NCBI RefSeq assembly: GCF_008727715.1
Contig: NZ_CP044218.1
Span: 4,667,501 to 4,731,500, forward strand
Source: Mesorhizobium terrae
GTDB taxonomy: Bacteria; Pseudomonadota; Alphaproteobacteria; Rhizobiales; Rhizobiaceae
Length of the DNA stretch: 64,000 bases
Direction of reading: 5' to 3'
Shown here in pieces: positions 8,727-36,413 of the stretch. The notes under the pieces are model-generated. The model was given only the letters and a program-made list of their open reading frames with translations, was not told the origin of the DNA and made no database searches. Numbering within the stretch: the stretch's first letter is position 1; each line of letters begins with the position of its first letter. The position numbers were made by a program, and so were the translations under genes.

Positions 8727-8757
8727 TTGCCTCTTGGGCTTGCGTCGTCCTCGCGCA

Positions 8758-13377: not shown

Positions 13378-13441
13378 TGTTGCCCCCAGCGAAATACCGC
13401 CCTGAAAACCTGGTGATGTCAGATGAGTCTGTGGTGCCCAT

Positions 13442-18011: not shown

Positions 18012-20639
18012 TTACTCGCCAGGTTTCCAGTCCGACATCTGCAACACATTTCCACCGAGTTTCTGGAAGGCGCGCTGGCGGCACGAAAAGACGATGATCT
18101 GCTGCTCCCGCGCCTGACGGTGCAGCGCATCGAACATCTTCTCGATACGGTCGTCGTCGGAATAGACGAGTGCGTCATCCAGAATGACCGGGGCCGGTCG
18201 GCCATCCTTCGCCAGCAGGCGGGCGAAGGCGAGCCGCGTTAGTACGGAAAGCTGCTCTCTCATACCGCCGCTGAGCCGCTCGACATCCTCCTCCTGCCCA
18301 TTGCGTAAAATCTTGTGCGGCAGAAGCGTCTTGTCGTCGAATGTAATGGAGACATCGTCAAAAAGCAGGCCGAGCAACGGTCGAAGCTCGGTCATCACCG
18401 GCTTGAGATAGGTCTCTCGCGCCTGGCTACGCGCGGCTTCCAGAGCAGTTCGAAGCCGCTGGAGTACCACCACCTCCTTTTCGTAACCGGCCACACGCGC
18501 CTTGGCGGCGGCGAACGCATCGACGCACTCCTGCCACTTCTCCTCGACCGCCTCCTCCGAACGTGCTCGTATTTCGGCGCTGAGACCAGCGATCTCCTCC
18601 CGCAACTTGCCGATTTCCTTCTCTGCCGCCTCCACAACAGAGCGGTGACGGCGCAGCGTCGCCTCCGAAGAAGCCAGGTCGCCGGCAGTTTCCCGCAATT
18701 GCTCGACGGCATCCTGTTGCCCAGCCAGTTGGGCGTTCAGGCCTGCCAATCGCGCGGCCATCCCGCTTTCGCGCTCGACGCGCGTCGCGTCCGGTCCGAG
18801 CAAGGCCTCGACCTGTGTACGCTCAGCATCCAGCCCGACAAAGATCGTTTGCGCTGCAACAAGGGCGTCAGCAGCAACCACAGGCAACGGCTCAGTCTCC
18901 CGCCAAGCCTGCCGAGCGGCCAGCTGCCTTGCTTCGGCCGCCTCATGCGCAGCGCGAACCTGGGCCGGGTCCTCCTTGAATTCCAGAAGGTCGCCAGCTA
19001 TTTCCCTGTGCGCCGCCACGTTTTCGCGCAGTTTCGGCAACCCGTCCGACGCCAGCAGTGACAGGCGCGTCCTTTTCTCGCGCAGGTCTCCTTCCCGGCG
19101 TTGCACGTCCAACTGCCTCTTGCGCGCCGCCGCCAGGTCGTCGACGCCCATGGAGGCAAGGAGTATGCGGCGGCGATCCTCCGACTGCTGCACCTGTTCG
19201 CCGCCATCGGTCTTCGGGCCGGATCGCAGCGTAACCAGACCGACACCGGGGATCTCCAGTACAGCCTGTCCGTTATAGCTATGCGCCTCGCCGTCCTTCA
19301 ACGGCTTGCCGTCGAGGCTGACAGCTGACGCTTGCGGCTCGTAGGCAATCGCGACGGAGGGGCGACCAGCCTCGGCGACGGCCTTGAGCTTGGCAATCTC
19401 GACGTCGAGCGTTTCGAGTTCCGACACGGCCTTTTCAGGCAACCGCAACAGCGCCAGCGCCGCCTCCCCCTCCTCGATTTTCCGGCGGACCGTTTCGGCC
19501 GCATCCAGCTTCCTCTCCAGTTCGGCCAGCCGTTCGGCGGCTTCGCGCGCATTGAGCGCGGCATCGAGGCGTTTCGAAAGCGTCCGCGCTTCCTGTTCCT
19601 CCGTTTCGGCGATTTCGATATCGGCTCGCGCCTTGGCTGCCGCTGCCGCCGCGGCATCGCGCCTGGCAAACGCCTCTGTCCGCCGGCGCTCCGCCTCGCC
19701 AAGCTTTGTCTTGAGTTCCGCAGCCCTTTCGAGGGCGGCCGTGAACTCCTCATGTTCGCGATGCGCGTTACCACGCTGCTCCTGAAACAGTTTGAGTTCC
19801 GCTTCGGCGGCGCGGAGGGTTTCGGCTTGACTCTTCGCCGCATCGAAGGCGGCTTGCGCGGTCTCCATGGCCTTTCGCCGTTCATCGCGGTCTTCGGCAC
19901 GGTCGAGTTCGGCGAGCCGTCTGGAGGCCGCTGCGCGCTTGTCGAGCGCCTCGCGCAAGGTCCTGACCTCGGCGCCCAGCTTGTTCTCCTCGGCCTCCAG
20001 ATCCTCACGCTCCTTAATCGCCGCTGCGTAGCGCTCCCCGGTCTTTGGCCTGCCACCAGGGGTCACGAGCCGCCCGAGTGCCTCGTCGGCCGCGGCCATG
20101 ATCTCGGCCATGCGGCGGCCGCCGGTAACGGCTTCGACCTCCCCCTGCACCGATTCGAGCAGACTCGTGCGAACCTTCGTCTCGCCCTCCTCTTCCGCTC
20201 TGCTGCGCTTCTCAATGCCGGTCACGCCCTGACGCACCCACAACAGGCCAGCCGGGCCGGCCGTGCCGCCGCGCACGAGGTTCGTGATGAAGCCCTCCGC
20301 CTCGTCGGCCTGCGCGACCAGCCGGCCATTCGCGAGATCGACAACGCGGGCAAGGCCTCCACCGTAGAACTGCTTGGTGATGCGGAACGCGCCGGTCTCC
20401 GTCGCGATGTCGGCTTCAACCAGCAGACTGCCGCCGCTATAGGGCCGCAGGTTCCTGACATCGCCGGCCGTGCTCGAATGCGACTGGAAAAACAAGGCGT
20501 GCAAAGCCTCAAAGCTGGTCGACTTGCCGAATTCGTTGGCGGCCGTCAGCACGTTGACGCCGTCGCCGATGCCCTCGATGGCGACGCCGCGGCCGGCGAA
20601 GCGCTTGACATTGAAAAGCCGCAGCGCGGAGATCTTCAT
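18012..20639 (-). CDS. SbcC/YhaN-like SMC-type ATPase, last gene of the Hhe operon
   Basis: 875 residues from MKISALRLFNVKRF. Walker A is AANEFGKST (33-41), with Ala in place of the usual first Gly. A long Ala/Glu/Arg coiled coil covers about 195-460 and 540-740, interrupted by a globular insert near 470-520. The ABC signature LSGGMREQL is at 789-797 and Walker B VILDDALVYSDDD near 818-830. There is no CxxC zinc hook, unlike Rad50/SbcC. The ATG overlaps the stop of the SbcD-like gene (ATGA), and I take that start rather than an upstream in-frame codon. Together the two should form a DNA-end or DNA-structure nuclease complex. Their coupling to a DUF4011 helicase-nuclease suggests phage defence rather than housekeeping repair. 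Confidence 0.88.
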   Translation of the reverse strand: MKISALRLFNVKRFAGRGVAIEGIGDGVNVLTAANEFGKSTSFEALHALFFQSHSSTAGDVRNLRPYSGGSLLVEADIATETGAFRITKQFYGGGLARVVDLANGRLVAQADEAEGFITNLVRGGTAGPAGLLWVRQGVTGIEKRSRAEEEGETKVRTSLLESVQGEVEAVTGGRRMAEIMAAADEALGRLVTPGGRPKTGERYAAAIKEREDLEAEENKLGAEVRTLREALDKRAAASRRLAELDRAEDRDERRKAMETAQAAFDAAKSQAETLRAAEAELKLFQEQRGNAHREHEEFTAALERAAELKTKLGEAERRRTEAFARRDAAAAAAAKARADIEIAETEEQEARTLSKRLDAALNAREAAERLAELERKLDAAETVRRKIEEGEAALALLRLPEKAVSELETLDVEIAKLKAVAEAGRPSVAIAYEPQASAVSLDGKPLKDGEAHSYNGQAVLEIPGVGLVTLRSGPKTDGGEQVQQSEDRRRILLASMGVDDLAAARKRQLDVQRREGDLREKRTRLSLLASDGLPKLRENVAAHREIAGDLLEFKEDPAQVRAAHEAAEARQLAARQAWRETEPLPVVAADALVAAQTIFVGLDAERTQVEALLGPDATRVERESGMAARLAGLNAQLAGQQDAVEQLRETAGDLASSEATLRRHRSVVEAAEKEIGKLREEIAGLSAEIRARSEEAVEEKWQECVDAFAAAKARVAGYEKEVVVLQRLRTALEAARSQARETYLKPVMTELRPLLGLLFDDVSITFDDKTLLPHKILRNGQEEDVERLSGGMREQLSVLTRLAFARLLAKDGRPAPVILDDALVYSDDDRIEKMFDALHRQAREQQIIVFSCRQRAFQKLGGNVLQMSDWKPGE

Positions 20640-21760
20640 GCAACCACCTGCGCATAGGCGTAGAGCCGGCCCAGCGCCGCCCGGGCGATCTCCCGCTCCT
20701 CGGCCGAACGGGCTGTATCGCCGGCTTCGGCAAGCAGGGCGTCGGCGGCCTCGCGCAGCGCGCCCGCACGGTCTATGGCGTCGAGGTCGCCGGCGTCGCA
20801 TTCAGTGGCCAGAGCCGCATCGTCGAAGGAGAGCCAAGCGAAGTCGGGCCGTGCATTCTCGACCGCGCGTGCCAGCGCCGCGCGTGCTTCCAGCCGTGCC
20901 CGTCCGCCGGCGACCAGCGTGACAAGCACCTGCCGCCTCGCCCGGGCCTCGGGAAGCAGTGATTGCATGAGCGCAACGGCGTCTTCGCCGTCGAGAAGGT
21001 CGAGCGCCAGAGTGCGCCAGGAGAAGGTACCGGTTTCCAGCACCGTCACGTCCGGAAGCGCCGCTGCACCTTCGATCGATACCAGCAAGGCCTCGCCCGG
21101 CCGGTCGTGCTTGAAGCGGTCGGGTTCCGGTGTGCCGCTGTAGCGCGTGCGCGGATCGATCTCGACGCCGCCGTGCCAGTCGCCGAGCGCTAGGTAGGAC
21201 AGGCCGGCGCGGCGTGCGCGATCTGGCGCGATCACGTCCAAACCGGCGCCCTCTTCGGAGAAGCTTGTGACCGCGCCATGGGCGAGGCCGATGCGGATCG
21301 TCCCGTCGCCTGTGACAGCATTGTCCATCCATTCGGACAAATCCCGGCCCGGTCGCCGCGTCGTACATGGCGCCGGCAACAGCGTAACACCAGATACAAG
21401 TTCGAGCGGCGTCGCATTGAGCGCCAATGTCACGTTCCTGGGCGCCTGTGCGCACAACGTCGACCAGAGCTGCGCGGCCTGGAGTGAATCGTGATTACCC
21501 GGCAGGATCACCCAGCGGACGGACGCATGATGACCCATTTCGGCAAGCGCCTGGCGTACCATGTCGGACGCCGGGGTCTCGGTGTCGAACGTGTCGCCCG
21601 CGAGCAGGATAGTCGATGCATCATGATTCCGTGCCTGCTCCGCGAGCCTGCCGATCGCGGCATGTCGCGCCTCGCGCAGCTTGGCGGGCAGGTCGCCGGT
21701 AAACTGCCCAAAACGCTTACCCAGATGCAGGTCGCTCGAATGGATGAAGCGGAACGTCAT
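20636..21760 (-). CDS. SbcD-like metallophosphoesterase nuclease
   Basis: 374 residues with the calcineurin-like nuclease motifs in order: DLHLG (Asp10, His12), GDTFD (Asp56), GNHDS (Asn89, His90), then GLAHG and GDWHGG for the remaining metal ligands. The C-terminal 130 residues are the capping and partner-binding part. It is the natural partner of the SMC-type ATPase that follows. Both junctions are 4-base ATGA overlaps: with the helicase gene at 21757-21760 and with the ATPase gene at 20636-20639. This means strict translational coupling and probably fixed stoichiometry of all three products. Confidence 0.9.
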   Translation of the reverse strand: MTFRFIHSSDLHLGKRFGQFTGDLPAKLREARHAAIGRLAEQARNHDASTILLAGDTFDTETPASDMVRQALAEMGHHASVRWVILPGNHDSLQAAQLWSTLCAQAPRNVTLALNATPLELVSGVTLLPAPCTTRRPGRDLSEWMDNAVTGDGTIRIGLAHGAVTSFSEEGAGLDVIAPDRARRAGLSYLALGDWHGGVEIDPRTRYSGTPEPDRFKHDRPGEALLVSIEGAAALPDVTVLETGTFSWRTLALDLLDGEDAVALMQSLLPEARARRQVLVTLVAGGRARLEARAALARAVENARPDFAWLSFDDAALATECDAGDLDAIDRAGALREAADALLAEAGDTARSAEEREIARAALGRLYAYAQVVA

Positions 21761-24700
21761 GAGGCGCTTGTATCTTGCTTCGCCATATGAATGCGAGCCC
21801 GCTCGATAGCTTCGTCGAGCCTTGTGCGCGCGGTCGCTGCGAGCCGCTCGACACCGAGCAGTCGCGCCATGTCGCGCGGGGGATCGGGCATGTCCACCAA
21901 AGCAGGATTGTCGACAACCACGGAGGCAAGTTCGGCCAAGGGGATATCGGCGATCGCACGCCGCGACTCTTCGTTCACCGATGGACGATAGGCCAGCACG
22001 TCCACAATGAGCCCCTTTTTCCAGATGAACACGCCGCTGGATTCGCTCGTCGTGTCGTAGCCGCGCAGGTGAAGGTCGATCCTTTCACGGATGCGCCCAC
22101 CGGTCCGCAACCAGCCATGCGCCCGCGCAATGTATTGCGCCAGCACATCAGCCGGCAACGGGCTTTCACCGTCCATCACCGCCTCGATCATTCCCTTGAG
22201 CGTGTCGCGATAGGCGAACTCATAGAAAAGGTCCGGTTCTGCCTTGAACATGGAGAGATCGGTCACCCGATATCCGGAACTGTCGGTTGGCGCGGATTCC
22301 GCTGTGGTGGTTGGTGGCAGCGGACTGACTGTTGCGTTCGGAACTGGTAGATCGGATGATGAAACGAGTTCGGTTTCATCGGTGGCCGGCGGCGGCACGA
22401 CTTCGTCCTCCGGCGGCAGAAGCGCGTCGCGGATTTCTTCGGTTTCCCCCAGTTCGTGGCCCATGTCCCAATGCGTCTCGGCTGCCGCTTCTTCGGCACT
22501 GCGTCGCTCCCGACTTAGCTGGAGCAAGGATTCGAGATCGTCGTGCAAACGGTCGGCACAGCCTTTCGCGTCGAACCACCAATCCGTCGACCAGACCCGC
22601 AAGATGTTCCATCCCAAGCCCCGCAGCACCTGCTCGCGCACCTTGTCGCGGTCGCGCGCCGTGACCGAGCTGTGATAGGTCGCGCCGTCGCATTCGACGC
22701 CCGCCAGATAGGCGCCGACGAGATCGGGGTGCCTGACGCCGAGGTCGATGCGCAAACCCGAGATGCCGACCTGCGGCACGACCATCCACCCGCGCCGTTC
22801 CAGTTGAGTGGCAACCGCCTCCTCAAAGGGAGAATCGAAACCGCCAACCGATCCGCGATCCTCCGCCGGCAACGCGATCGCCCCCCGCTCCGCGTAGTCG
22901 AGGAAAGTCTTGAGGTGATGGACCGCTACATATTTCGATTTGGCCGGGTCGATCTGGTCAGCGGTGAAGCCTGAGAAGACGACCAGTTTCTGCCGGGCGC
23001 GCGTCACCGCCACGTTGAGCCGGCGCTCGCCGCCGTCGCGATTCAAGGCGCCGAAGCTCATCGGCGGCGGTTTGCCTGAAGCGTCTTTCCAGAAGGCGAT
23101 CGAGAACAAGATGACGTCGCGCTCGTCGCCCTGCACGTTTTCAAGGTTCTTCACGATGGTCGGCTCCACCCGGTCCTCGGCGAAGAACCATTCGAGTTCC
23201 GGCCTATCTCGCCGCGCGGCGTCGAGCAGGTCGAGGATCAGCGACTGCTGCTGCGCGTTGAACGTGATGACGCCGAGCGTCGGGCGCTCCCGCTCCGGCA
23301 TCTTCAGCCAGCGTTCCATGCGTTCCACCGCCTCCGCGACGACGGCTTCCGCCTCAATGCGGTTGGTTCTGCTCTTGCCCTTGTCGTAGACGCCGTGGGG
23401 AATCTTGTGCAGGCTGACCGCCCGATCCTCGACCGCCGGCGACGGGAAGGTCACCAGCCGGTTCTGATAGTAATGATGATTGGAAAAGGCGATCAAGGAC
23501 TCGCTGCGGCTGCGATAGTGCCACCTGAGATCCCGCACCGGGATGCCGGATGCCCTTGCCTCGTCGAGGATGCTTTCCAGATCCTTCTCGTAGTCGGCAA
23601 CGTCCTCCTCATCCTCGTTGCGGCCGAAGAAATTGGTCGGCGGCAACTGCTTGGGATCGCCGACGATGATCGTCTGGCGGGCGCGGGCGATCGCACCGAC
23701 TGCGTCCCAGGTCGTGATCTGGGAGGCTTCGTCGAAGATCACCACGTCGAACAGCGCCTGGTTCGGCGGCAGGTACTGGGCAATCGACAGCGGCGACATC
23801 AGCATGCAGGGCGCAAGCTTCGGAAATGTCTCGGGCATCTTGCCGATCATGTCGCGGATGGACTGACTGGGCCTTTGCAGTTCCATCTGGTGACGCAGCA
23901 GGCCGAGTTCGGAGTGCCGGGAGATACCGGCAACCGGCAGGCCATGCGCAACTGCGCTGATGACGCGGCGGGTCGCGTGGGTCCGCACCATGTCATCGAC
24001 CTCGCGGAACTCCTTTATCGCGTTCTCGTGCTGGAAGCGCCTGAAATTCCTTAGCACCGGATCGACATCCAGAACCTTAGGCAGCCACCAGCGGGCGTAC
24101 GCTAGCCGGAATGCGTGGCGCGTCTCATCGGCAGCGATCGTCCCAGCTTCGAGCATTTCGATCAAGGGGCCAAGCCCGTTGTGGACGGTGCGCCGCCGCG
24201 CCACGCACCAGGCGGACCAGTCACGAAGAAGATTGCGCGCCTTGACCAAGTCGGCCATCTGCATGGCAATCTCGCCGGGGCTCGCCTGTGGGCTAATCGC
24301 CCTGTCGGCAACCTCGGAGAACCGCCTGCTGGCCGCTTCCATGCCCAGCATTGCAGCAAGAAACCGCGTGCCTACATGCCGCAATTGCTCATCAGGGCTG
24401 CCACGCAGGCTGGGCGCGACTACCCGCAGCATCGGCTTGACCTCTTCCGCGCTCAGTCCCGGCAGGCGAAGCGCGCCACGGAGTGCACCGCTCAGGTCGA
24501 GTACATCCGAAACCGCCGCGATATCGGTCGCCAGCCCCTGCACCTTCAGTCGCTTGCCGGCTAACGGCGTACCGTCGATGCTTGCCAGATGTTCCTTCAT
24601 GCGACGCAAGAGAGGCAGGTCGCGGGCCGGATCGGCATTGCCACTACCCGCATGGCCTTGCAGCAACTTCTGGACCTTTCGCCTGCCCAGCATCGCATTC

Positions 24701-27700
24701 GGCCAGAAGGATGCATCAGCATCCCGCCATTGGCGTTCCATGGCTTCCGCATCAATGTCGCGCACGGCATTTTCGGAATAAGATGCCGCCGTGCCTGTTT
24801 CCGCCTGCCGATAGGCTTTGATCGCTCGGCCCAGTTCCGCAAGAGCCTCGTCCATTACCGAGAAATCCCGATCAAAGGCGACGGACAGGTCGACACCGTT
24901 GCCCCGATCCAGCGCTGTCGCGAGCTTCGCAAGCGCAGCCAGTTCCTCCGGCGAAGCCTCACTCTCTCGTGTGAGACCAAGACAAGTGCGGTAGGCAGAG
25001 CCGGCATCGCGCAGCAATTCCGCCGCGTTGCGCAGCGACTGCGCAGCCGACATCAGACTATCCTGCCAGCCGGACGACCAGTCCTGCGCGTCGATGAGGT
25101 CCAATGCGGGATGACGCTCGACGGAGGCGTAGACCCGTCCGGCTTGCGCCGCCATGTCCTCCAGTGCCTGAATCGCTGCGGCATCGTGCGTATCCCGCTC
25201 TGGCCAGGACAATTCGGGAGCCGGGGCGTCGCCGCCCTTAAGCGCAATGCCGAGCGCGAGATACGGCGTCCAGCCGTTCGCGTATCGTTTGTGTAAGGCA
25301 TCGACATAGGCGTTGAGCTGGTCGCGGTGAACCCTGAGCCGTTCGTTCACAGCCACCCATTCGGAGGCATCCATGCCGCTTCCATGTTCCCAGGCCGCCT
25401 TGAGCTGGCCAAGGAAATGCTTGCGGTCTGCCTTGCTGGAATGGAGCTCGATACATTGATTGGCGAGGCCATGCTCGCGAAGGCGACGGTAGACGACGTC
25501 GAGTGCTGCCGTCTTCTCGGCGACGAAGAGCACGGTCCTGCCTTTGGCAAGGCAGTTCGCGATCATGTTAGCGATGGTCTGGCTCTTGCCCGTGCCAGGC
25601 GGGCCTACGACGACGAAATCGAGACCTTCGGCGGCGGCGATGCTCGCTGCGGTCTGCGACGAGTCGGCCGGAAGCAGGGATATGATGTCCGATGGCGCAT
25701 AGATACAATCTAGCTCGCGCTCGTCCTGGAATGAGGAGACCCCTTCCCCCTGGCTGAACGACTGTTCCGGCGTGTCGATCAGGTGGCGCACGACCCGGTT
25801 CTGGCGCAGCGCATCCGTGCGTTCGACCAGATCCTTCCACATCAAGAATTTCGCAAAGGAGAAGGTCGAGAGCGCGGTCTCGTCGATCACCTCCATGCCT
25901 GGGACATCGCGAACGGCGCTGCGCATGGAAGCAAGCAGTTGCGGTACGTCGACGCCACTGTCGTCCATTGGCAGGTCGCCCGAGAACTGCGGCAGCTTGA
26001 GCTCGAAATCGCGTTCCAGAAACTGCAAAAGAGTGGCGTTGAAGCGCGGTTCGTCCTCATGGAAGCGAATGGTGAAGCGCGAGCTGGCGCTGCGGCGCTC
26101 CAGTCGAACGGGAACCAGGAGTAGAGGTGCGCGATAGCTGCGTTCGTCCTCGGCCTTCTTCTTCCAGCGCAGGAACCCCACGGCCAGGAACAACGTGTTG
26201 GCGCCGCCTTCGGCGAAGTCGTTACGGACCTGTCGGTGCAGATCTACAAGCCGTGCTTCGAGTTGCCTGGCGTCGAGCGGCGAGGGCAGCTCGTCACGAA
26301 GCAAGGCTTCGGCCGCGAAATTGCGCTGGATATCGCGGCCATGCACGTCGCGATAGAGGGCGGCATCGCGCTCGCCGAGAGGGTTCTGCTCCGGCAGGGA
26401 GATGACGCGGATTGCAGCGCCCTGTGCAAGCCGGTCTTCCAGATAGGCCACATCGGTGCACAGGAATGGAATCGTCTTCTTCGAGTCCGGGAAATTCAGG
26501 AGGCGGTTGCGCAGCGTCAGGTCGAGAAGCTTCTTCTGCCATCGGTCGATGCGCCCCGCAGCCGTAGTCGGTTTTTGCTCGACCGTTTCCTTCGGGAACT
26601 CGCCGAATGACGGCGGCGCTGGCAGGGGAAGGTCCGCGACCGCCTGGTGTTCATCCTCTGGCACGGCCCTCCGCAGTGGCTCATGAGAGGCAAGCGGTGT
26701 GATGCCACCGCTACGCGCCCGGCGCACGTCAATGGCGGCAACGAAGCCATGCGCTGCCTCCTCTGCAAGGCGCGGCTCGAGCGCTTGTTGCGCCGCCTCC
26801 ATCATCATCGCAGGGCGGTGCGTCACGCCGGTCGTCTCGAAGACAATCAATTCCCGCGAGGCAAGCGCTTTGCGCACCTCCATCTGGTCCGTCTCGATGG
26901 CGTTGCCAAATGTGCGCTTCGTCAGCCAGACGCCCGCTGCGGCATGCCCATCGAACATTAGGATGACGGGATGCAGACCTGCAGCCTCCAGCGCGGCGGC
27001 AAAAAGAAGCGTGGCGTCGAGGCAGGTTGCCAGCATGTCCTCGGCAATCGTTCCCGGTCGCCTGACCTTCTGCCCGCGGCTCTCGAAGCTGGCCGGAGGC
27101 TCCGCGTAGTGAAGCCCCATTGAAGCGATCGCCGAATAGACCGAGGCGGCCAACATGAAGGCGCGTTTCGGGTCCTGCGATTGATAGCCGTCGAGACCCG
27201 AGGCATGGCCGTGGGCTGCTAAGCGCTCGGCGGCCTTTCGCAGCAGCGCCGAGACTATCGGATCGTTCGGCATGACGAAGGCCGGCAGCAATTGCACCAT
27301 GTCCGCAACACCACCCCACTCGTCACGGGCGAGCAGTCGCACTGCATATCTGTGCTCGTCCAAAATCTCGGAACCGGCGATAAGCCGAAGCGTGATCTCA
27401 CCGCGTTCAGCCTCATTAAGTCCAGCCAAATAGCCGGCGTCGAGTTCGATCTTCCGATCGCCGAGCGGAAGGTGATCGCCGGGGACGATCCGATCGATCG
27501 TCCATGTCTTGGAACGCAGGAAAGCGGGCGTGGACGAAAGCTCCAGACGCAGTCTGTCGACTTGGCGGTCCGACTGGTTCTCGACACCTATTCGTCGAAG
27601 AACGGGGATGGCGTTCTGGTAGGAAGCATAGGTGAAGCTTGAGGCAATATCGGCGAAGATCTTTGGTGACTGCGGTTTCTCGACCACGGTCATGTCATTC

Positions 27701-27729
27701 GTTACATGTTGTTGATCTTCTAGTGTCAT
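21757..27729 (-). CDS. hheA: Hhe-type defence protein: DUF4011, SF1 helicase, Vsr/MTES-like nuclease, DUF3320
   Basis: About 1990 residues. In order: an N-terminal part with a transglutaminase-like stretch (CLDATLLFAAALEAAGLHPV); DUF4011 (RWQKKLLDLTLRNRLLNFPD); SF1 helicase Walker A VVGPPGTGKSQTIANMI, motif II VVIFDEASQI with GDPKQLPP, and motif VI VAVTRARQKLVVFSG; a PD-(D/E)XK endonuclease near 1630-1725 (GLRIDLGVRHP, GVECDGATYH, LGWNILRVWSTDWW); and DUF3320 near 1840-1900 (YEFAYRDTLKGMIEAVMDGE). This order is, from memory, that of the single-gene Hhe anti-phage system. I chose the ATG at 27729 over an upstream GTG at 27750. Unusually it heads a coupled operon with SbcD- and SbcC-like genes. 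The nuclease metal residues look intact. Confidence 0.88.
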   Translation of the reverse strand: MTLEDQQHVTNDMTVVEKPQSPKIFADIASSFTYASYQNAIPVLRRIGVENQSDRQVDRLRLELSSTPAFLRSKTWTIDRIVPGDHLPLGDRKIELDAGYLAGLNEAERGEITLRLIAGSEILDEHRYAVRLLARDEWGGVADMVQLLPAFVMPNDPIVSALLRKAAERLAAHGHASGLDGYQSQDPKRAFMLAASVYSAIASMGLHYAEPPASFESRGQKVRRPGTIAEDMLATCLDATLLFAAALEAAGLHPVILMFDGHAAAGVWLTKRTFGNAIETDQMEVRKALASRELIVFETTGVTHRPAMMMEAAQQALEPRLAEEAAHGFVAAIDVRRARSGGITPLASHEPLRRAVPEDEHQAVADLPLPAPPSFGEFPKETVEQKPTTAAGRIDRWQKKLLDLTLRNRLLNFPDSKKTIPFLCTDVAYLEDRLAQGAAIRVISLPEQNPLGERDAALYRDVHGRDIQRNFAAEALLRDELPSPLDARQLEARLVDLHRQVRNDFAEGGANTLFLAVGFLRWKKKAEDERSYRAPLLLVPVRLERRSASSRFTIRFHEDEPRFNATLLQFLERDFELKLPQFSGDLPMDDSGVDVPQLLASMRSAVRDVPGMEVIDETALSTFSFAKFLMWKDLVERTDALRQNRVVRHLIDTPEQSFSQGEGVSSFQDERELDCIYAPSDIISLLPADSSQTAASIAAAEGLDFVVVGPPGTGKSQTIANMIANCLAKGRTVLFVAEKTAALDVVYRRLREHGLANQCIELHSSKADRKHFLGQLKAAWEHGSGMDASEWVAVNERLRVHRDQLNAYVDALHKRYANGWTPYLALGIALKGGDAPAPELSWPERDTHDAAAIQALEDMAAQAGRVYASVERHPALDLIDAQDWSSGWQDSLMSAAQSLRNAAELLRDAGSAYRTCLGLTRESEASPEELAALAKLATALDRGNGVDLSVAFDRDFSVMDEALAELGRAIKAYRQAETGTAASYSENAVRDIDAEAMERQWRDADASFWPNAMLGRRKVQKLLQGHAGSGNADPARDLPLLRRMKEHLASIDGTPLAGKRLKVQGLATDIAAVSDVLDLSGALRGALRLPGLSAEEVKPMLRVVAPSLRGSPDEQLRHVGTRFLAAMLGMEAASRRFSEVADRAISPQASPGEIAMQMADLVKARNLLRDWSAWCVARRRTVHNGLGPLIEMLEAGTIAADETRHAFRLAYARWWLPKVLDVDPVLRNFRRFQHENAIKEFREVDDMVRTHATRRVISAVAHGLPVAGISRHSELGLLRHQMELQRPSQSIRDMIGKMPETFPKLAPCMLMSPLSIAQYLPPNQALFDVVIFDEASQITTWDAVGAIARARQTIIVGDPKQLPPTNFFGRNEDEEDVADYEKDLESILDEARASGIPVRDLRWHYRSRSESLIAFSNHHYYQNRLVTFPSPAVEDRAVSLHKIPHGVYDKGKSRTNRIEAEAVVAEAVERMERWLKMPERERPTLGVITFNAQQQSLILDLLDAARRDRPELEWFFAEDRVEPTIVKNLENVQGDERDVILFSIAFWKDASGKPPPMSFGALNRDGGERRLNVAVTRARQKLVVFSGFTADQIDPAKSKYVAVHHLKTFLDYAERGAIALPAEDRGSVGGFDSPFEEAVATQLERRGWMVVPQVGISGLRIDLGVRHPDLVGAYLAGVECDGATYHSSVTARDRDKVREQVLRGLGWNILRVWSTDWWFDAKGCADRLHDDLESLLQLSRERRSAEEAAAETHWDMGHELGETEEIRDALLPPEDEVVPPPATDETELVSSSDLPVPNATVSPLPPTTTAESAPTDSSGYRVTDLSMFKAEPDLFYEFAYRDTLKGMIEAVMDGESPLPADVLAQYIARAHGWLRTGGRIRERIDLHLRGYDTTSESSGVFIWKKGLIVDVLAYRPSVNEESRRAIADIPLAELASVVVDNPALVDMPDPPRDMARLLGVERLAATARTRLDEAIERARIHMAKQDTSAS

Positions 27730-27925
27730 CGCATCACCCCGCCCGACCACAAACTACCGTCACTTTACCTGAAAGCGAAAGTCCTAATCCGCTCAGGCGC
27801 AGTAGCAGCGATAGAAAGCGACGATCTGTGAACAGCGACTTCCTCCCTGGGGCCGAGAGCGGTCCTTCCGCTTTCAGAATGACGGCGCGATAAGGCTGCC
27901 GTTCGCCTGCTCGTGAAGGATTACT

Positions 27926-29461
27926 TTGAAATCTCTGTTGCGGTCGGGCACGTTGCCTCCAAGACTTGTGGGTAAAGGTGAGCGCGTGGCTGAGATTTGG
28001 GAACTGCAGAACAAGCCGGCATACGGTGGCACGATAGTAGATGCCGGTGTTAATCCTGAGGACGGATCGTCCTTGGTAATCGAGCTCACACAAGACGAGG
28101 GAACCCAATACCTGAGCTATTACCTGAGCGAAAAGGCGTTCAACCGGAGCAAAGCCTCAGGCGTCAACTTTGCCGACGATCACTGGCCTCTACTGCTTGC
28201 CGAGTACGATTTCCCAACACGGTTGCTTACCACATACCCGATATGGCTCAGGTCCAATCAGAGCAATTTCACCAAAACGAAATACAAGTCTATTAAACGT
28301 ATATCTTTCGAGGATCAGTCGCCGATGGACTTCCAGGTCGGCTTTGGAATGTTCTTTGACCTGCCCACTGGTTTCCACCGCAGGCCATTCGAAGGCTTCG
28401 GTGTCGATCCTCGGATTCGCTACATCATGAGTGCATTTGACGAAGTGGAAGGCGCCGCCGGGCTTACTATCTGCGGTGACGACGAGATTTCGATCGACGG
28501 AGAGGAGATCCGGCTGCCGGAACATATCTACCACGACGTACGTCTGGACATTAATCGTGCTCATGATGCAGCGGTGAGGTTCGCAAATGGGGAAAAGGTG
28601 AGCTATCTCCGCAACCGTCTCCTGCCATCCGTTGTGCCAGGTTTCGAACCCGATGATTTCGAGCGACCAGCCGTAGACTTGCAAGACACCGTGCGGTCCG
28701 CCCTCGTCAAGAAAGGCACCCCACGCTCCCGGAACACCAACACTGCTGCAGCCGTCCGAACGGTGATCCGTCAGGTCGACAATATCGCCAAGGACGATCC
28801 CGTGCAGCTGTTTGAGTTGAGCGAGAAGATCGAGCTCGTCTCGCTGCAAATCCTCATAGAGGACATGTCAAAGGAACTTCTCAACGGACGAAAGGAGGGA
28901 TTTTGGCAGGAGTATTTCGTCCAGAACCCCTTCGTTCTGAAGATGCTCTTCGGCCTGCCTGTGATTGTGTACACTGATCAGGCATCTGTCGGAGGCATGG
29001 GCCTCAAGCGTTCCGGCGAGAAATATGCTGACTACCTCCTAGAGGCGGGTTTGCTAGGCAACCTGGGTATCGTCGAGATCAAAACGACCGAAACCCCGTT
29101 GTTGACGAAAGACCCCTACCGCCCACCGACACTTTATGGCCCATCCACGGATTTGTCGGGTGGAGTGAACCAGCTCCTCGACCAGAAGCTCAGACTGATC
29201 AAAGGTATTGCGGCAAAGAAGGAAGAAGACGACCAGCCCCACATTCAAGCCTGGTCTGTTCCCTGCATCCTGATCATCGGCAGGCTGCCGGAAACGCACG
29301 ACCTAAAGAGGTCGTTCGAGATCTACCGAGGAAGCCAACGAGATGTGCTGATCATCACGTTCAACGAACTCTTGGCCAAGCTAAAAGCATTGCACGAATT
29401 CCTGTCGACTAGACCGGACGAGCCCAAGGAAGACCTCTCTGACCAATTCGCCGATCCATGA
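27926..29461 (+). CDS. sduA: Shedu anti-phage nuclease SduA (DUF4263)
   Basis: 511 residues. The C-terminal nuclease domain has the Shedu hallmarks: FWQEYFVQNPFVLKMLFG (327-344), YADYLL (Asp369), GNLGIVEIKTTETPLL (Glu384, Lys386, the PD-(D/E)XK pair), YRPPTLYGPS, and LSGGVNQLLDQK (Gln420). The N-terminal 320 residues are a variable sensing region with no family I recognise. SduA works alone as a DNA nuclease against phage. The TTG start is supported by GAAGGA at 27915-27920, five bases upstream; GTG codons further in are the alternatives. It is transcribed divergently from the Hhe operon across a 196-bp gap. The module boundary at about residue 320 is an estimate. Confidence 0.92.
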   Translation: MKSLLRSGTLPPRLVGKGERVAEIWELQNKPAYGGTIVDAGVNPEDGSSLVIELTQDEGTQYLSYYLSEKAFNRSKASGVNFADDHWPLLLAEYDFPTRLLTTYPIWLRSNQSNFTKTKYKSIKRISFEDQSPMDFQVGFGMFFDLPTGFHRRPFEGFGVDPRIRYIMSAFDEVEGAAGLTICGDDEISIDGEEIRLPEHIYHDVRLDINRAHDAAVRFANGEKVSYLRNRLLPSVVPGFEPDDFERPAVDLQDTVRSALVKKGTPRSRNTNTAAAVRTVIRQVDNIAKDDPVQLFELSEKIELVSLQILIEDMSKELLNGRKEGFWQEYFVQNPFVLKMLFGLPVIVYTDQASVGGMGLKRSGEKYADYLLEAGLLGNLGIVEIKTTETPLLTKDPYRPPTLYGPSTDLSGGVNQLLDQKLRLIKGIAAKKEEDDQPHIQAWSVPCILIIGRLPETHDLKRSFEIYRGSQRDVLIITFNELLAKLKALHEFLSTRPDEPKEDLSDQFADP

Positions 29462-29697
29462 CACAGGCTGACCCGGTTGAGCTTCTGTGTAGCGAGATCT
29501 CGTCACGACGCGTGAGCTAGCCACCCCTAGAGTGGCTCCACTAACGGACGTTCGAGAGTTGAGAGTCTGAGCTTACCACGCGGAAAGCGGCGCGCCAGAT
29601 CGGCTGCATTGCGCCTGCGGCTCGACTTTGCGTTGATCCCATCCCTACAATTCGAATCAATGCCCTGGCGCGCGACAATGGGGCTTTGGGGGAGCGC

Positions 29698-31332
29698 ATG
29701 AAGATTTCCAAGGTCAAGATCACCAATTTCAAGTGTTACGAGGAGACCTTCACCCTTGCCTTGAACGACGGCCTCAATGTGATCGTCGGCGCCAACGAGT
29801 CCGGGAAGACCACGATCCTGGAGGCGATTCACCTCGCGCTGACAGGACTGCTGCACGGCCGCCCGTTGAAGAACGACCTGACGAGCTATCTCTTCAACTT
29901 GGCCGCTCAGAACAAGTACGTGCGGAGCCTCGGCACAGCATCCCCGCTTCCGCCGCCAGCGATCACCATCGAGTTGTTCTTTTCGGGGTCCTCAAATGAA
30001 CTGGCGGAGCTCGAGGGCGACGGAAACTCTGAGAAGGCCAAGGACAGTGGCGTCGTCTATAAGATCGAGTTCGACGAGGAAAGTTACAAAGGGCCGTACG
30101 AGGAGTTGGTGAAAGCCGGCGCGCTTAGCTCCATCCCGGTTGAGTACTACATCACGACCATGCGGTCGTTCGCGCGTAGGGGCATCACCGCTCGCAATAT
30201 CCCCATCAAATCCGCGCTGATCGACTCGTCCAGCACCCGACTGCAGAATGGGTCGGACGTCTACGTCTCCCGGATCATCCGCGACGTGCTGGAGGAGAAG
30301 GAGCGCGCGAGCATTTCCCAAGCCCACCGGAAGCTCAAGGAAACTTTTGTGTCGGACCCAAACCTAAAGCTAATTAACGACCGGATCACCCAGGCTGCTA
30401 AGATCAGCCAGAAGGCGGTCAGTATCTCGGTCGATCTGTCGTCCCAGACCGCCTGGGAAAGCAGCTTGATGACTTACATCGACCTCATCCCCTTCCAATA
30501 CATCGGCAAAGGCGAACAGTGCGTGATCAAGACCAAGCTGGCTCTCAGCACCAAGAAGAACGCCGAGGCGACGGCGATTCTGGTTGAGGAGCCGGAGAAT
30601 CACTTGTCGCACGCGCGGTTAAACGAACTCATCGCCGACCTGACCGACCAGCACGGGCAAAAGCAGATCATCATTTCCACGCACAGCAGCTTCGTGGCCA
30701 ATAAGCTCGGCCTCGACCACCTGATCGTGCTGCGTGGCGGTGAGGTGGCGCGCATCTCGGAACTGAAAGCAAGCGACTTCTTCAAGAAGCTGGCGGGTTA
30801 CGACACCCTGCGCCTAGCGCTCGCCGCCAAGGCCATCCTTGTGGAGGGCGACTCCGATGAACTGGTCGTTCAGCGGGCCTATATGGACGCCAACGGTGGC
30901 CGACTACCTATCCAAGACGGCATCGACGTCATTTCTGTTGGCACGGCCTTCTTGCGCTTCCTTGAACTGGCCAGCGCCCTGAAGATCCCGGTCGCCGTGG
31001 TCACCGACAATGACGGCGACACCGCCGCCGTCGAGAAGAAGTACGCTGCATTCAAGGACTCCGGCACCGTCAGGATCTGCTTTGATCCCGTCGTCGACAC
31101 CGGAGCGCTGATGATCAAGGACAAGCCCTTCAACTACAATACGTTGGAGCCAAAGCTCCTTAAGCCCAACGATCGTGCGATGTTAAATACCATCCTCGGA
31201 ACGTCGGCAACCGCTGACGACGAGTTGCGCATTTACATGAGAGCCAACAAGACCGAGAGCGCCTTGGCCATCTTCAATTCGACGGCCACGATTACCTACC
31301 CGGACTACATCCAGAGAGCCATCGCGCCGTGA
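29698..31332 (+). CDS. gajA: Gabija endonuclease GajA (OLD family)
   Basis: 544 residues. An N-terminal ABC-type ATPase has Walker A GANESGKTT (31-39), Walker B AILVEEPENHL (about 293-303) and the H-loop IIISTHSS. It is followed by a TOPRIM nuclease domain: AILVEGDSDE (Glu383, Asp385) and VVTDNDGD (Asp437, Asp439). The gene that overlaps its end is a UvrD-like helicase, the fixed partner in Gabija. In studied Gabija systems GajA is a nucleotide-sensing DNA nuclease in a complex with GajB. I chose the ATG at 29698 with GGGGAG upstream rather than the TTG four codons earlier. Other class 2 OLD systems exist, but this pairing fits Gabija best. Confidence 0.9.
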   Translation: MKISKVKITNFKCYEETFTLALNDGLNVIVGANESGKTTILEAIHLALTGLLHGRPLKNDLTSYLFNLAAQNKYVRSLGTASPLPPPAITIELFFSGSSNELAELEGDGNSEKAKDSGVVYKIEFDEESYKGPYEELVKAGALSSIPVEYYITTMRSFARRGITARNIPIKSALIDSSSTRLQNGSDVYVSRIIRDVLEEKERASISQAHRKLKETFVSDPNLKLINDRITQAAKISQKAVSISVDLSSQTAWESSLMTYIDLIPFQYIGKGEQCVIKTKLALSTKKNAEATAILVEEPENHLSHARLNELIADLTDQHGQKQIIISTHSSFVANKLGLDHLIVLRGGEVARISELKASDFFKKLAGYDTLRLALAAKAILVEGDSDELVVQRAYMDANGGRLPIQDGIDVISVGTAFLRFLELASALKIPVAVVTDNDGDTAAVEKKYAAFKDSGTVRICFDPVVDTGALMIKDKPFNYNTLEPKLLKPNDRAMLNTILGTSATADDELRIYMRANKTESALAIFNSTATITYPDYIQRAIAP

Positions 31333-32540: not shown

Positions 32541-32567
32541 CGAGAATGAAGGCGCATAGAAGACATC

Positions 32568-32586
32568 CCGCCGCCGAGGGCGGCGG
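32568..32586. other. GC-rich hairpin after gajB
   Basis: CCGCCGCC-GAG-GGCGGCGG, a perfect 8-bp stem with a 3-base loop, 28 bases after the gajB stop. There is no T-run, so it is either a weak terminator or an mRNA end stabiliser. The rest of 32541-32909 shows no gene. Confidence 0.5.
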
Positions 32587-32909
32587 TCGATCATCTTGAC
32601 AAAGCACCGCCAATGGAAGTGTCCCGCTCCGATGCGCCGCGATTCAGACCGCTATGCTTCCTGATAAACTCTCTCCGCGCACATACCATGGCTGGGATCA
32701 TAACGGATTTCCAACGTCGTAACATCGCGCCGTGACAGATGTTCCTGGCGACGCACCAGCATCAATTTAACTTGACGTTTTCGAACTTTGCCGCAAGCGA
32801 ACCGCGTCGCATTCGATGCTGAGGCCGCGATGCGCTTCTGAGGGATGACCTACTAGGAATGCTCTTTCCACCGCTCAAGACCCGTTTAACAGGCGACGGC
32901 CCGTGTCGA

Positions 32910-35900
32910 CTACTGATGCTGTTCGTCCGTTTGATTAGCCGCTTCCTCTTCCGCTTGTTCAGGCTCGAAGCCAAGGAGATCGATCATAATTCTAACGCGT
33001 TCCACCAGCGCATTGTCCTCCCCGCGAAGCTGACCTCTTAAGGTATTGTCTAATGCCTTTACCTCGTCAGGCGACGCTTTTTCCAGGCAGTGCTTCATGT
33101 CCTTCTGGCGCTGGCGGACAAATTGCAGGACTCGCTCGGAAGGAGAAATCGCCAGTTTATGGAGGAACGCTCCGACGGCCGCATCCGGATTCTTATCGAG
33201 CGGCATCTTGATCGCGATCGGATGATACATCTCGATGTAGTGTGCCACGCCCGTGGGCGTAGATGTCGTAGTCGCCAACGCGTTCAAAACCTCGAATGCG
33301 ATTGTCTTGGTATTGGGAACAGGCAGCGCCTTGCAAATTTGCGGCCAGTCTGGCCGATATTCACGTCGCGTTTCTTCAACGCAGATTTCCAAAGTGTGCT
33401 TCTTGATCGCCTCGCCAAAAGCCGCAGGCGACAGGACAACGTCTGAGTCTTCCACGCGCGTGATCAGCAGTCCCACCGCGCCTGTTGAATTCGAAAGTGC
33501 AGCCAGCCAATCTTCGCCCGACAACGAGCCTAGCTTGTCGTCGACGATCTTGAGAATTTCAGATGGAGCTTGGCCCTCCGGAGCCATGGCGATATCCCGC
33601 GCTAGCTGGGGGGACAGATTGAGGATATCGACATCGTCTATTGCCTTCCTCCAATCAATTTTCTCTTCGGCAAGTTGCTGTAGCAGCAGCGTTGTTGTGT
33701 CTTGGCCAATTGTCTCGCGTAGTCGGTCGAAGTCGGACATCCACTTAAGATTTGAATCAATCCAGTAATCGTGCTCCTCGACGACCTTTCTCAGCACTCG
33801 AGGAAACAAGGGGGCTGTGCTACCCGTAGAAATCGCATAATTGGTCCAATCGGAAAACCTACCACGGTTCGACACGACCGCGGACAGTGCGTCGATGAAC
33901 TCCTGGAACCCACTGCTGCTCATTCGGATACTTTTGTACCATGCGATCGCGGCCGTGTTGTCACCAAGATTTGGATGGGTGGCGGGTGGGGTATGCTCAG
34001 TGGTGCCGATAGCACTGACGATCAACCAAAGACCGTCCGCAGCTCTCGGAACTGAAGTCTTCTCGGCTGTGAACGCGTGCCATAGCAGGGTTCCATCTTC
34101 GACGACGGCTCTGAGGGTCGTTCGCACTTCCTTTTGCCTGCCGGCAATCTCGACAAGTTCCGCCAGCATGCCGAGGCGATCACCGTGTCCCTTGTCCAGT
34201 AGGTCAGCGGGGCTACGTAGGATACCTGCAATTACTTCGATGAGAGGGTTCAACTGCTTAGAGTGCGGGCGGAGCAGTGAGTCGAGTTCGGGGATCGCTA
34301 AGCGAGCAATATTGGGTGCATCGCTAGCCGTTTGCTTCAGTGTTTCAATGATCATTGCGGGCTTTACCCGACAGCTTAACGCCCCGAATGAATACTTAGT
34401 CGGGCTGAATGCGGCCGCAGCGTTGATGCAAAAATTAGCGTCATCTGGTGGCTGCGTATCCCGCTGGAAAGAAATTCGTGTATCCTTTCCTGCAGATCTT
34501 TCAAGGGCATCAAATAGATCCACCATCGACGCAGCCCATACCTCAGGCGCAGGTCTTAAGTTAGCTGGTGGCGACATGTAATTGCGCAGAAAAATGGCTG
34601 CTTTGGCAGCACGGTTGGTGTCCAGATGCTCTATAATTTTGCACAGACCTGCAAATGCTGCGGCCGGTTGTTCTTGAATTGACCCTAGGCTGGGTAGAGA
34701 GTCTCCGAGCATATTCCAGCAGTTTTTTGCGAAGCTGCTTTCCAGTTCAACCTTTTCCAGATTGATGGCAGCTCTTGAAAGTATTTGCGGGCTTTGTGCC
34801 CACTGATGCGCATCACTGTCGAGAACCTCGTAAGCTGTAGTCTCGAAACCTGTGGCCTCTTTCCACCCATTGAGGTCCCCAGCGTCGATAGAGGTAAAGG
34901 CTTTCGCAATGGGGTCGGCGAGTAAGACTTGTCGAGCGTGAAGCGGCTCTACGTTAAAGCAGAGCGCGGCCAGGTGGTCAGTCCACGCTGATGGCAAATG
35001 TGTCAGAGACTGCTGAGGAAAAAGGCCTTTGGCAATTACCGTCGGATCCGCCTCAATTATCTCCCGGTGGAGCACATAAAATCCGATGGTGACTATCGGA
35101 ATGCTGTGGCCCCACTGAACCCAAAGTGCCCCAACTTCGTTGACGAAAGAGATAATACGTCGCGGAGTTGCCATCAGGCTTTTGTCGCGGAGCGCGAGCT
35201 GCAGTATGCGGTAAAGATGATATCGATCGTCGAGATGCGCTTCGCCCGAGATCTGTAGTCCGAAGGCCTCCACTAGCTTCGCGTCCAGAAAGGACTTCCA
35301 ATCGCTTGTAACTGGAGGGGCGACCCGAATTACCCGATCAAACGTCTTTTCGAAGAGATCGATATTTGGGTCGCCTCCAGACGTCTCCACAGCATGTCCT
35401 TCGCCAGTACCGCTGAAGGCGCTCAGAACGTGGCCCCTATCGTAAGGTATGACGGCGATGACGTGCGCAGCTGGTCCCCGGATCTGTGACGGGTTGGGCG
35501 AAAAGACCGCCCACATTTGCGACCAGGCGGCGCGGACTTCGTCCCTAGGCAACCTATCGATGTTGTCGAGCACGAAGACTATCCGTCGTTTGTCTTTCTG
35601 TGCTTTCGACAAAAGGTCGCGGAAAAGTCCGTAAAACTCGAAGGCAGTAGGATCTTCGTCGCGGATGTTTTGCTCAATGGTCTCCCTTTTTTTCTCGTTG
35701 GAGAAGATCATTGCTGTCTCAGACAGAGCATAAAGAAGCGATCTGTCGGTAGCGCCTCGCCGCCAAGCTGGATTCCACATCAGCTTGATTGCACGTCCGA
35801 TAACCCAAACAACAAAAAGGAACGGGACAATGAGTGTGATGATTTGGGGCCAGTTCAGCCCCCAAAAAACAGTGTCAGGAACTATCGGTGGTGCACCCGG

Positions 35901-36392
35901 AAACACGGGTGGCGCATCTGCAGTAAGATGGCTGTATCCAATGGGGGCCAAGGCCAGCAGCAAGAGAAACACCAAACCCGGCCACGTGTAGAGGCTAAAG
36001 CGATCCGTTCCAATAGTCTGAGTGCGATCCCGAATCCGGCTGATCGCATGCGTCACTTCAGTGGTAGTGAGATACTTTTGCTGCTCTAGCCACGCGACGA
36101 ACTCCTCCAAAAACAGCCGGCGGAAATTGTCTGTCTGATGTCTCCACAGATCGAAGGTGAAGAGGTCGTACTTGCCCTTGGGCAGCGCCTTGGCCGCCAA
36201 TTTGATGACCATCGACTTTCCGGTGCCCCAGCTTCCTTCCAAGCCAATTGCACCGTCACGTGTGCCGATTTGGCTGATCGTGTCGGCTAGTGCCGTGGCG
36301 GTCCGCGTGTGGCCTCCTCCTGCGAAGGCATCGTCATCCGCCGCGTTACCGGTCAGTATCTGCGCGTGCGGTTTCGTCGGCGTTTCAGTCAT
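32910..36392 (-). CDS. KAP-family P-loop NTPase with two membrane helices
   Basis: About 1160 residues from MTETPTKPHAQIL. Walker A is GSWGTGKS (53-60). Two hydrophobic helices (about 137-153 and 183-203) sit between Walker A and Walker B RRIVFVLDNIDRLPRD (about 269-283), the layout typical of KAP NTPases, which face the cytoplasm from the inner membrane. The C-terminal 700 residues are alpha-helical with no domain I recognise. A TTG at 36413 is possible, but the ATG at 36392 has GGGGAA before it. KAP NTPases occur in several defence systems (for example as QatA), yet no Qat partners are present here. Its position beside Gabija, Shedu and Hhe suggests a defence role; the mechanism is unknown. 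Confidence 0.8.
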   Translation of the reverse strand: MTETPTKPHAQILTGNAADDDAFAGGGHTRTATALADTISQIGTRDGAIGLEGSWGTGKSMVIKLAAKALPKGKYDLFTFDLWRHQTDNFRRLFLEEFVAWLEQQKYLTTTEVTHAISRIRDRTQTIGTDRFSLYTWPGLVFLLLLALAPIGYSHLTADAPPVFPGAPPIVPDTVFWGLNWPQIITLIVPFLFVVWVIGRAIKLMWNPAWRRGATDRSLLYALSETAMIFSNEKKRETIEQNIRDEDPTAFEFYGLFRDLLSKAQKDKRRIVFVLDNIDRLPRDEVRAAWSQMWAVFSPNPSQIRGPAAHVIAVIPYDRGHVLSAFSGTGEGHAVETSGGDPNIDLFEKTFDRVIRVAPPVTSDWKSFLDAKLVEAFGLQISGEAHLDDRYHLYRILQLALRDKSLMATPRRIISFVNEVGALWVQWGHSIPIVTIGFYVLHREIIEADPTVIAKGLFPQQSLTHLPSAWTDHLAALCFNVEPLHARQVLLADPIAKAFTSIDAGDLNGWKEATGFETTAYEVLDSDAHQWAQSPQILSRAAINLEKVELESSFAKNCWNMLGDSLPSLGSIQEQPAAAFAGLCKIIEHLDTNRAAKAAIFLRNYMSPPANLRPAPEVWAASMVDLFDALERSAGKDTRISFQRDTQPPDDANFCINAAAAFSPTKYSFGALSCRVKPAMIIETLKQTASDAPNIARLAIPELDSLLRPHSKQLNPLIEVIAGILRSPADLLDKGHGDRLGMLAELVEIAGRQKEVRTTLRAVVEDGTLLWHAFTAEKTSVPRAADGLWLIVSAIGTTEHTPPATHPNLGDNTAAIAWYKSIRMSSSGFQEFIDALSAVVSNRGRFSDWTNYAISTGSTAPLFPRVLRKVVEEHDYWIDSNLKWMSDFDRLRETIGQDTTTLLLQQLAEEKIDWRKAIDDVDILNLSPQLARDIAMAPEGQAPSEILKIVDDKLGSLSGEDWLAALSNSTGAVGLLITRVEDSDVVLSPAAFGEAIKKHTLEICVEETRREYRPDWPQICKALPVPNTKTIAFEVLNALATTTSTPTGVAHYIEMYHPIAIKMPLDKNPDAAVGAFLHKLAISPSERVLQFVRQRQKDMKHCLEKASPDEVKALDNTLRGQLRGEDNALVERVRIMIDLLGFEPEQAEEEAANQTDEQHQ

Positions 36393-36413
36393 GATTGTTG
36401 ATTTCCCCACCAA

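Follow-up and report, generated by a model that had tools for sequence, protein, structure and literature searches.

A ProA-family defence gene coupled to SbcD/Mre11-like and SMC/Rad50-like genes in Mesorhizobium terrae: a putative multi-gene form of ProA anti-phage defence

ProA is a protein family to which NCBI gives an anti-phage name (NCBIfam model NF058533, antiphage_ProA) and which PADLOC lists as the candidate PDC-S37. Given the names of the NCBIfam models around it (NF058532 CH3_S_uro_de_S, NF058534 HyoA and NF058535 EruA), and since no anti-phage model of that collection matches the two further genes described here at E <= 0.001, ProA appears there as one protein. Hhe (NF042953) is a related helicase-nuclease, the model of which is described as DUF4011-containing, and Lamassu combines an LmuA effector with LmuB, an SMC-like ATPase. 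In a 64,000-nucleotide stretch of Mesorhizobium terrae (assembly GCF_008727715.1, contig NZ_CP044218.1, positions 4,667,501 to 4,731,500; hereafter the window), a ProA-family gene is coupled to genes for an SbcD/Mre11-like metallophosphoesterase (hereafter the nuclease) and an SMC/Rad50-like ATPase, a pair that resembles SbcCD and Mre11-Rad50 in joining a nuclease to a coiled-coil ATPase. The coupling, the conserved helicase and nuclease residues, a neighbourhood that recurs in other genomes and matching distances among the three proteins are all read from sequence, and we put at about 60% the probability that this operon represents a multi-gene form of ProA anti-phage defence, differing from ProA as modelled in NF058533 by its two further coupled genes. 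Among the literature matches listed, none is a publication on ProA, HyoA or PDC-S37, and SbcCD-like terms are absent from the 20 papers listed out of one set of 581 matches; it is possible that a multi-gene ProA system has been published outside the searched library or beyond those matches.

All three genes lie on the minus strand. The ProA gene (21757..27750, 1997 amino acids) may begin at a GTG (27750) or at an ATG (27729), and its end overlaps the start of the nuclease gene (20636..21760, 374 amino acids) by the four bases ATGA (21757..21760); a second ATGA (20636..20639) joins the nuclease gene to that of the ATPase (18012..20639), for which the mechanical list of open reading frames (ORFs) begins upstream at 20801, while the overlapping ATG gives 875 amino acids. 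Both overlaps were read in the sequence and all three ORFs were found, which bears out the coupling and the coordinates given in an earlier note on this DNA, where the ATG at 27729 was taken as the first start. The same note had called the first gene Hhe, a name that we reject: the product scores 766.6 bits against NF042953, which has a curated cut-off of 2000, but 2131.6 bits against NF058533 (cut-off 1500) over model positions 1-1903 of 1903, and PADLOC ranks PDC-S37 (1178.8 bits) above Hhe (536). By these scores, the window protein is a member of the ProA family.

The window protein and ProA have in common a chain that consists of DUF4011 (26017..26532; PF13195, 156.5 bits), a superfamily 1 (SF1) helicase in two parts, the first with the Walker A motif GPPGTGKS (25285..25656; PF13604) and the second running from Walker B to motif VI (22975..23760; PF13086 and PF13087), an MTES_1575 restriction-endonuclease-like nuclease domain (22534..22827; PF18741, 113.9 bits) and DUF3320, the C-terminal domain and a candidate docking module (22084..22233; PF11784, 47.7 bits). 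The Walker A lysine, the Walker B DE and the motif VI arginine of the helicase are each kept in 77 of 77 ProA rows, as are E1643, D1669 and D1688 of the nuclease domain, with E1686 kept in 76. At the N-terminus, a predicted immunoglobulin-like beta-sandwich (residues 20-140; 27331..27693) is followed by what we propose to be a transglutaminase/papain-like domain (residues 146-341; 26728..27315), with conserved Cys243 (27022-27024), Asp245 and His269 (26944-26946). These three residues are invariant in 31 chosen rows and present in 33 of the 34 rows from ProA proteins lacking a neighbouring pair (lone ProA) in which the region is found. The proposal draws on one structural match of residues 126-321 to a transglutaminase-like fold, obtained with a model of mean predicted local distance difference test (pLDDT) 69.9, from a match list that is mostly taken up by the beta-sandwich and from which absent families may still fit; Pfam and NCBIfam scans give the domain no name, and a search of PDB sequences finds nothing for the N-terminus at E <= 1.

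The second product had been described as an SbcD-like nuclease, and this description stands. It matches Pfam PF00149 at 42.2 bits and TIGR00619 (sbcd) at 58.1 bits, the latter over residues 4-107 only and short of the curated cut-off of 77.65, and its closest solved chains are SbcD and Mre11, consistent with an SbcD/Mre11-type metallophosphoesterase. The metal-binding motifs of SbcD and Mre11 are DxH, GDxxD, GNHD and GHxH. The first three are present in the family of the window nuclease and invariant in 22 rows, whereas the fourth is GDWH (window 21173-21184) in all 22, so that one predicted metal ligand differs from SbcD.

The window ATPase has weak matches to SMC_N, SbcC Walker B and AAA_27, with only AAA_27 over its cut-off; hmmscan finds no match to TIGR00618 SbcC (cut-off 478.5 bits) at E <= 0.001, and a search of solved structures by sequence finds none. 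Its model (mean pLDDT 73.2, predicted template modelling score 0.33) shows a head divided between the two ends, a pair of long helical arms and an apex, in which residues 425-475 (19215..19367) are predicted to form a small beta-rich element instead of a zinc hook (pLDDT about 60-77). CxxC is absent from this protein and from 20 related ATPase ORFs, four of them cut short or misplaced, in agreement with the earlier statement that the ATPase lacks a zinc hook. The altered Walker A to which that statement was joined, AANEFGKST (20517..20543), is present but usual in this family. In an alignment of 20 ATPase rows, one a near-identical copy of the window ATPase, the ABC head motifs A.NE.GKST, LSGG and VILDDA are invariant and Ala stands in place of the first Gly of Walker A throughout (locus L079 has Glu). 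Because the first Ala and NE.GKST are invariant there, the alteration is a family trait and no defect of the window copy, and the missing hook is likewise a trait of the family. The ATPase thus differs from SbcC/Rad50 in lacking the hook, in its predicted apex and in a Walker A that begins with Ala. It matches PADLOC LmuB weakly, at 41.6 bits; a second weak LmuB match has 20.8 bits, and no other Lamassu model, LmuA included, matches any of the three operon proteins at E <= 0.001.

We scanned genome contigs with an alignment of the nuclease and kept the best 80 loci, although more exist. An ATPase match lies 3' of the nuclease in all 80, and the two genes overlap by 4 bp in 61, with the start unplaceable in 12. 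Immediately upstream of the pair, 28 of these loci, from several alphaproteobacterial orders, carry sequence derived from ProA. The window's genus has 12 close loci, the window's own among them; 11 show ProA upstream, and the twelfth (L189) has about 1 kb of upstream sequence only. The earlier note had taken a conserved order as a sign of a three-gene system; these counts, together with other gene orders or a second pair family elsewhere, support a conserved three-gene unit. The organisms of the ProA-linked loci include Rhizobium, Mesorhizobium, Nitrobacter, Methylobrevis, Devosia, Sphingomonas, Sphingobium, Alteripontixanthobacter, Rubritepida, Neoroseomonas and Asticcacaulis, as well as a metagenome bin of Arenimonas in which the nuclease is broken. 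A script counts 20 ProA ORFs longer than 1900 amino acids among the 28, and L100, where an ORF of 1996 amino acids stands beside a broken nuclease, brings this to 21; the rest are cut by contig ends, broken or remnants. Profile search recovers ProA in 27 of the 28 loci, and tblastn alone recovers the remnant at L069 (97 residues, 48% identity). The distance from the ProA stop to the nuclease start is readable for 27 loci and always falls between -4 and +14 bp.

Pairwise distances of the three proteins correlate closely across 12 loci with complete genes (r: ProA-nuclease 0.959, ProA-ATPase 0.968, nuclease-ATPase 0.958; none of 5000 permutations reaches any of these values), a set from which L083 was dropped (its ATPase ORF has 572 amino acids) and in which L041, L043, L080 and the near-copies of L058 were left out. 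With cut-short ATPase ORFs, the correlation is 0.31 and 0.17 with the ATPase and 0.86 between ProA and nuclease. In a ProA tree of 72 rows, 18 nuclease-linked ProA proteins fall in one clade of 19 rows with a single lone member (Shimodaira-Hasegawa-like approximate likelihood ratio test 99). This tree, like the nuclease tree considered below, is a quick search without bootstrap; it omits ORFs shorter than 1400 amino acids, L100, all plasmid loci and five near-identical Mesorhizobium rows, and its sampling is biased, as most linked rows come from the nuclease search and the lone rows from the ProA search. Sphingomonadales and Acetobacteraceae are nested in it among Hyphomicrobiales, which suggests that ProA and the pair have spread between orders as a unit.

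When ProA is taken as the starting point, a plasmid collection yields 77 records, 14 at >=60% identity and 63 below. Directly beside ProA, 13 of the 14 carry an SbcCD-like nuclease, the pair or remains of it. The order ProA-nuclease-ATPase is annotated in R. phaseoli N831, Rhizobium sp. Pop5, Mesorhizobium loti 582 and Mesorhizobium sp. 131-3-5; in a second R. phaseoli plasmid, for which only ProA and nuclease were compared, the two adjoin by coordinates, and the ATPase is cut in the plasmids of S. alkalisoli and Rhizobium sp. C104. A piece of the nuclease follows an annotated full-length ProA in plasmid L222, and pieces of both nuclease and ATPase follow a broken ProA in L233. We rejected R. 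rhizogenes pC5.7b and R. leguminosarum TpK as examples of lone ProA, as both hold a piece of the nuclease after ProA, and TpK also one of the ATPase. Three of the 14 plasmids have a pair of another type, YhaO/YhaN, head-to-head with ProA, and in Bosea sp. Tri-49 a pair of this type lies downstream of a ProA that is split in annotation. Beside the truncated, unannotated ProA of plasmid L284 there is no nuclease or pair. Among the 63 less similar plasmids, 10 were examined, chosen for spread of organisms; two have a pair beside ProA, in the order YhaO-YhaN-ProA with 0.3 kb between in Rhizobium beringeri and head-to-head with 1.1 kb between in the betaproteobacterium Paraburkholderia phymatum, and eight have none. 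Three plasmids (L224, L229 and L235) have IS21 elements inside or close to the operon or ProA, which fits frequent decay. We also noted an AAA family ATPase of about 880 amino acids after ProA in Mesorhizobium amorphae and Paraburkholderia phymatum (L227:13031-15676 and L241:12780-15401), possibly a further partner.

The YhaO/YhaN-type pair (YhaO is a name assigned in this analysis, and YhaN family protein is the annotation of the records) resembles the window pair in consisting of a metallophosphoesterase and an SMC-like ATPase, in an overlapping start at locus L170 and in occurring beside ProA; it differs in length (about 418 and 1155 amino acids) and in keeping GHxH (8 of 8), and its nuclease is 23-24% identical to that of the window over about 200 residues. 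In a 61-genome sample of the window's genus, YhaO-type nucleases occur in 25 places, of which 23 were fetched (G673 and G668 were left out). A ProA-type gene or remnant lies beside YhaO in eight of the 23: three near full-length ProA genes head-to-head, one remnant, and four shorter ProA-like genes upstream, three of these four being identical. The shorter protein at L170, with 1861 amino acids and 1631.3 bits, is over the ProA cut-off. At locus L188, which is of another family than this genus, a 186-amino-acid gene (L188:6123-6683) stands head-to-head with a YhaO/YhaN-type pair; its match to the ProA model is confined to the C-terminal part (102.4 bits, positions 1743-1903). Because this stand-alone ProA C-terminal gene adjoins such a pair, we propose DUF3320 as the docking part. 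In G107 and G138, about 0.2 kb separates a match of the ProA C-terminal type from one of the YhaO/YhaN type.

The genome sample comprises 40 loci with ProA or a ProA-like gene, 32 of which pass the ProA cut-off; flanks of about 7 kb were read in both directions as far as the contig reached. L275 has the order nuclease-ATPase-ProA, L281 has YhaO fragments after ProA, and L283 has a weak YhaO-like ORF 3.5 kb from ProA. The idea that ProA is alone outside the linked clade was given up when two-sided, wider flanks added these three loci. Six more ProA loci (L180-L185) include the pair in L180 only, and five loci with short ProA-like proteins (L172-L176) have no pair.

Taken over all these searches, ProA and the pair are found in at least five arrangements: ProA-nuclease-ATPase, nuclease-ATPase-ProA, head-to-head with YhaO/YhaN, ProA-YhaO-YhaN and YhaO-YhaN-ProA. 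As the same neighbourhood recurs in all of these and involves two pair families, a functional link is the simplest account of it. We picture ProA, which combines an SF1 helicase with a restriction-type nuclease and a proposed transglutaminase-like N-terminus, as probably acting on invading DNA while moving along it. It would open or cut this DNA, of phage or plasmid origin, and pass ends or branched structures on to a dedicated complex of the Mre11-Rad50 kind, formed by the products of genes two and three, which would digest them; the pair would thus add end or hairpin processing to ProA, and the three products would form one complex in which the DUF3320 end of ProA serves for docking. A broader claim we make tentatively and at slightly less than even odds: that Mre11-Rad50-like pairs from two or more families were recruited by ProA several times, each time independently, through DUF3320, giving at least five gene arrangements directed against phage and plasmid DNA. 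Such recruitment would parallel, in bacteria, a helicase-nuclease that passes DNA ends on to Mre11-Rad50. If true, repair machines of the Mre11-Rad50 kind have been drawn several times into one defence, with DUF3320 as the docking domain, and SbcCD-like pairs usually annotated as DNA repair acquire a role. ProA/PDC-S37 is one protein in the libraries used, and if partners are needed, single-gene cloning screens would miss the activity of this clade.

Hachiman (HamAB) offers a comparison at the level of how a system works, with a helicase sensor and a nuclease; it differs in having two genes, and no Hachiman model matched the three operon proteins. The Hachiman helicase is reported to restrain its nuclease, which by analogy gives a precedent for a quite different role of the pair: as a safeguard or regulator, not an effector, it might clear ProA-made ends from the host chromosome or restrain ProA, and tight coupling would hold the ratio of the products constant. 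Many ProA genes have no pair at all, however, and plasmid L222 keeps its annotated full-length ProA beside a mere piece of the nuclease, from which it would follow that ProA is not generally toxic without the pair. We regard this role as highly improbable.

Returning to the multi-gene variant of ProA, several observations weigh against it. The pair occurs without ProA in 52 of the best 80 loci, where the upstream ORFs (the longest one ending within 1.5 kb, possibly spurious in GC-rich DNA) comprise 41 singletons and a largest group of three, and pRL12 and an Agrobacterium plasmid carry it amid metabolic genes, again without ProA. No pair match is found near 37 of the 40 sampled ProA or ProA-like loci. 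Of the 28 ProA-linked loci, 10 are Mesorhizobium near-copies, and in the phylum sample ProA lies within 1.5 kb in only 2 of the 30 best YhaO loci, both from the window's genus. The nuclease tree has 97 rows, and on it a ProA neighbour is gained or lost 13 times, with at least six of these changes forced by well supported branches, which implies that neither part needs the other. Plain shared descent could also give part of the distance correlation, which was computed without a control gene. The pair can exist alone, and so can ProA. The proposal of one machine, as the earlier note had it, therefore claims too much if it is taken as a general rule. The loci with the pair alone and those with ProA alone lend themselves to a different explanation, in which two independent modules share one transcript, the pair being a general repair or plasmid-maintenance analogue of SbcCD in Alphaproteobacteria and ProA being a self-sufficient single-gene defence that gains cheap co-expression from its upstream position; it is in keeping with this that helicase and nuclease residues are equally conserved in lone and in linked ProA. 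Such independence does not sit well with an adjacency repeated in several orders and with two pair families, with the matching distances or with the nuclease, pair or remains beside 13 of 14 close plasmid ProA genes, and the patchy occurrence of the pair in the genus is unlike that of a repair gene. We consider this explanation rather unlikely.

The patchiness also bears on whether the pair is simply sbcCD. In the window's genome, the SbcD model matches this nuclease gene only, below its cut-off, and no SbcC match is over the cut-off. The earlier note would have taken the lack of another SbcCD in the genome as refuting its proposal. The lack is formally there, but SbcD is over the cut-off in 0 of 61 genomes of the genus (against 8 of 14 control genomes), and close relatives of the window nuclease (E < 1e-170) occur in 12 of the 61, with two more partial or more distant. 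With sub-cut-off scores in addition, we reject the identification with sbcCD. Since no genome of the 61 reaches the SbcD cut-off and only 12 have a close match, the pair appears to be accessory and not the housekeeping sbcCD of the genus, which, as far as this 61-genome sample shows, manages without canonical SbcD.

Upstream of the operon, the window carries Shedu SduA (27926..29461, plus strand; PADLOC SduA 458.2 bits), Gabija GajA and GajB (29686-31332 and 31329-32540, plus strand; 739.3 and 453.9 bits) and a KAP-family NTPase of 1167 amino acids (32910..36413, minus strand; PF07693, 50.7 bits). As these adjoin it, the ProA operon lies in a defence island; Shedu and Gabija are divergent from it. 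Defence neighbours speak for the multi-gene ProA reading. Such surroundings also raise the possibility of mere crowding, in which mobile defence genes settle at shared hotspots and are fused by recombination, with no joint function. The window and plasmid loci do lie amid Shedu, Gabija, ThiF/E2-type, toxin-antitoxin and AAA-plus-UvrD genes, and ProA beside YhaO/YhaN is a minority arrangement in both the genus places and the best phylum loci. A spacing that stays between -4 and +14 bp from one order to another, together with matching distance matrices in 12 loci, is nevertheless unexpected for chance neighbours, and we judge crowding improbable. In Pseudomonas aeruginosa, a DUF4011 gene is reported to be a core flank of defence hotspot 1 in all isolates of one study (PMC10250203).

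Defence genes are thus densely packed at 27926-36413, where the KAP-type NTPase (32910-36413) also matches PifA and QatA weakly; further to the right come transporter and metabolic genes. Scans for promoters, terminators and RNA families yielded nothing of use. Downstream of the operon, at 1167-13575, the window encodes a 2519-amino-acid protein with a DUF11 match and a 1605-amino-acid autotransporter.

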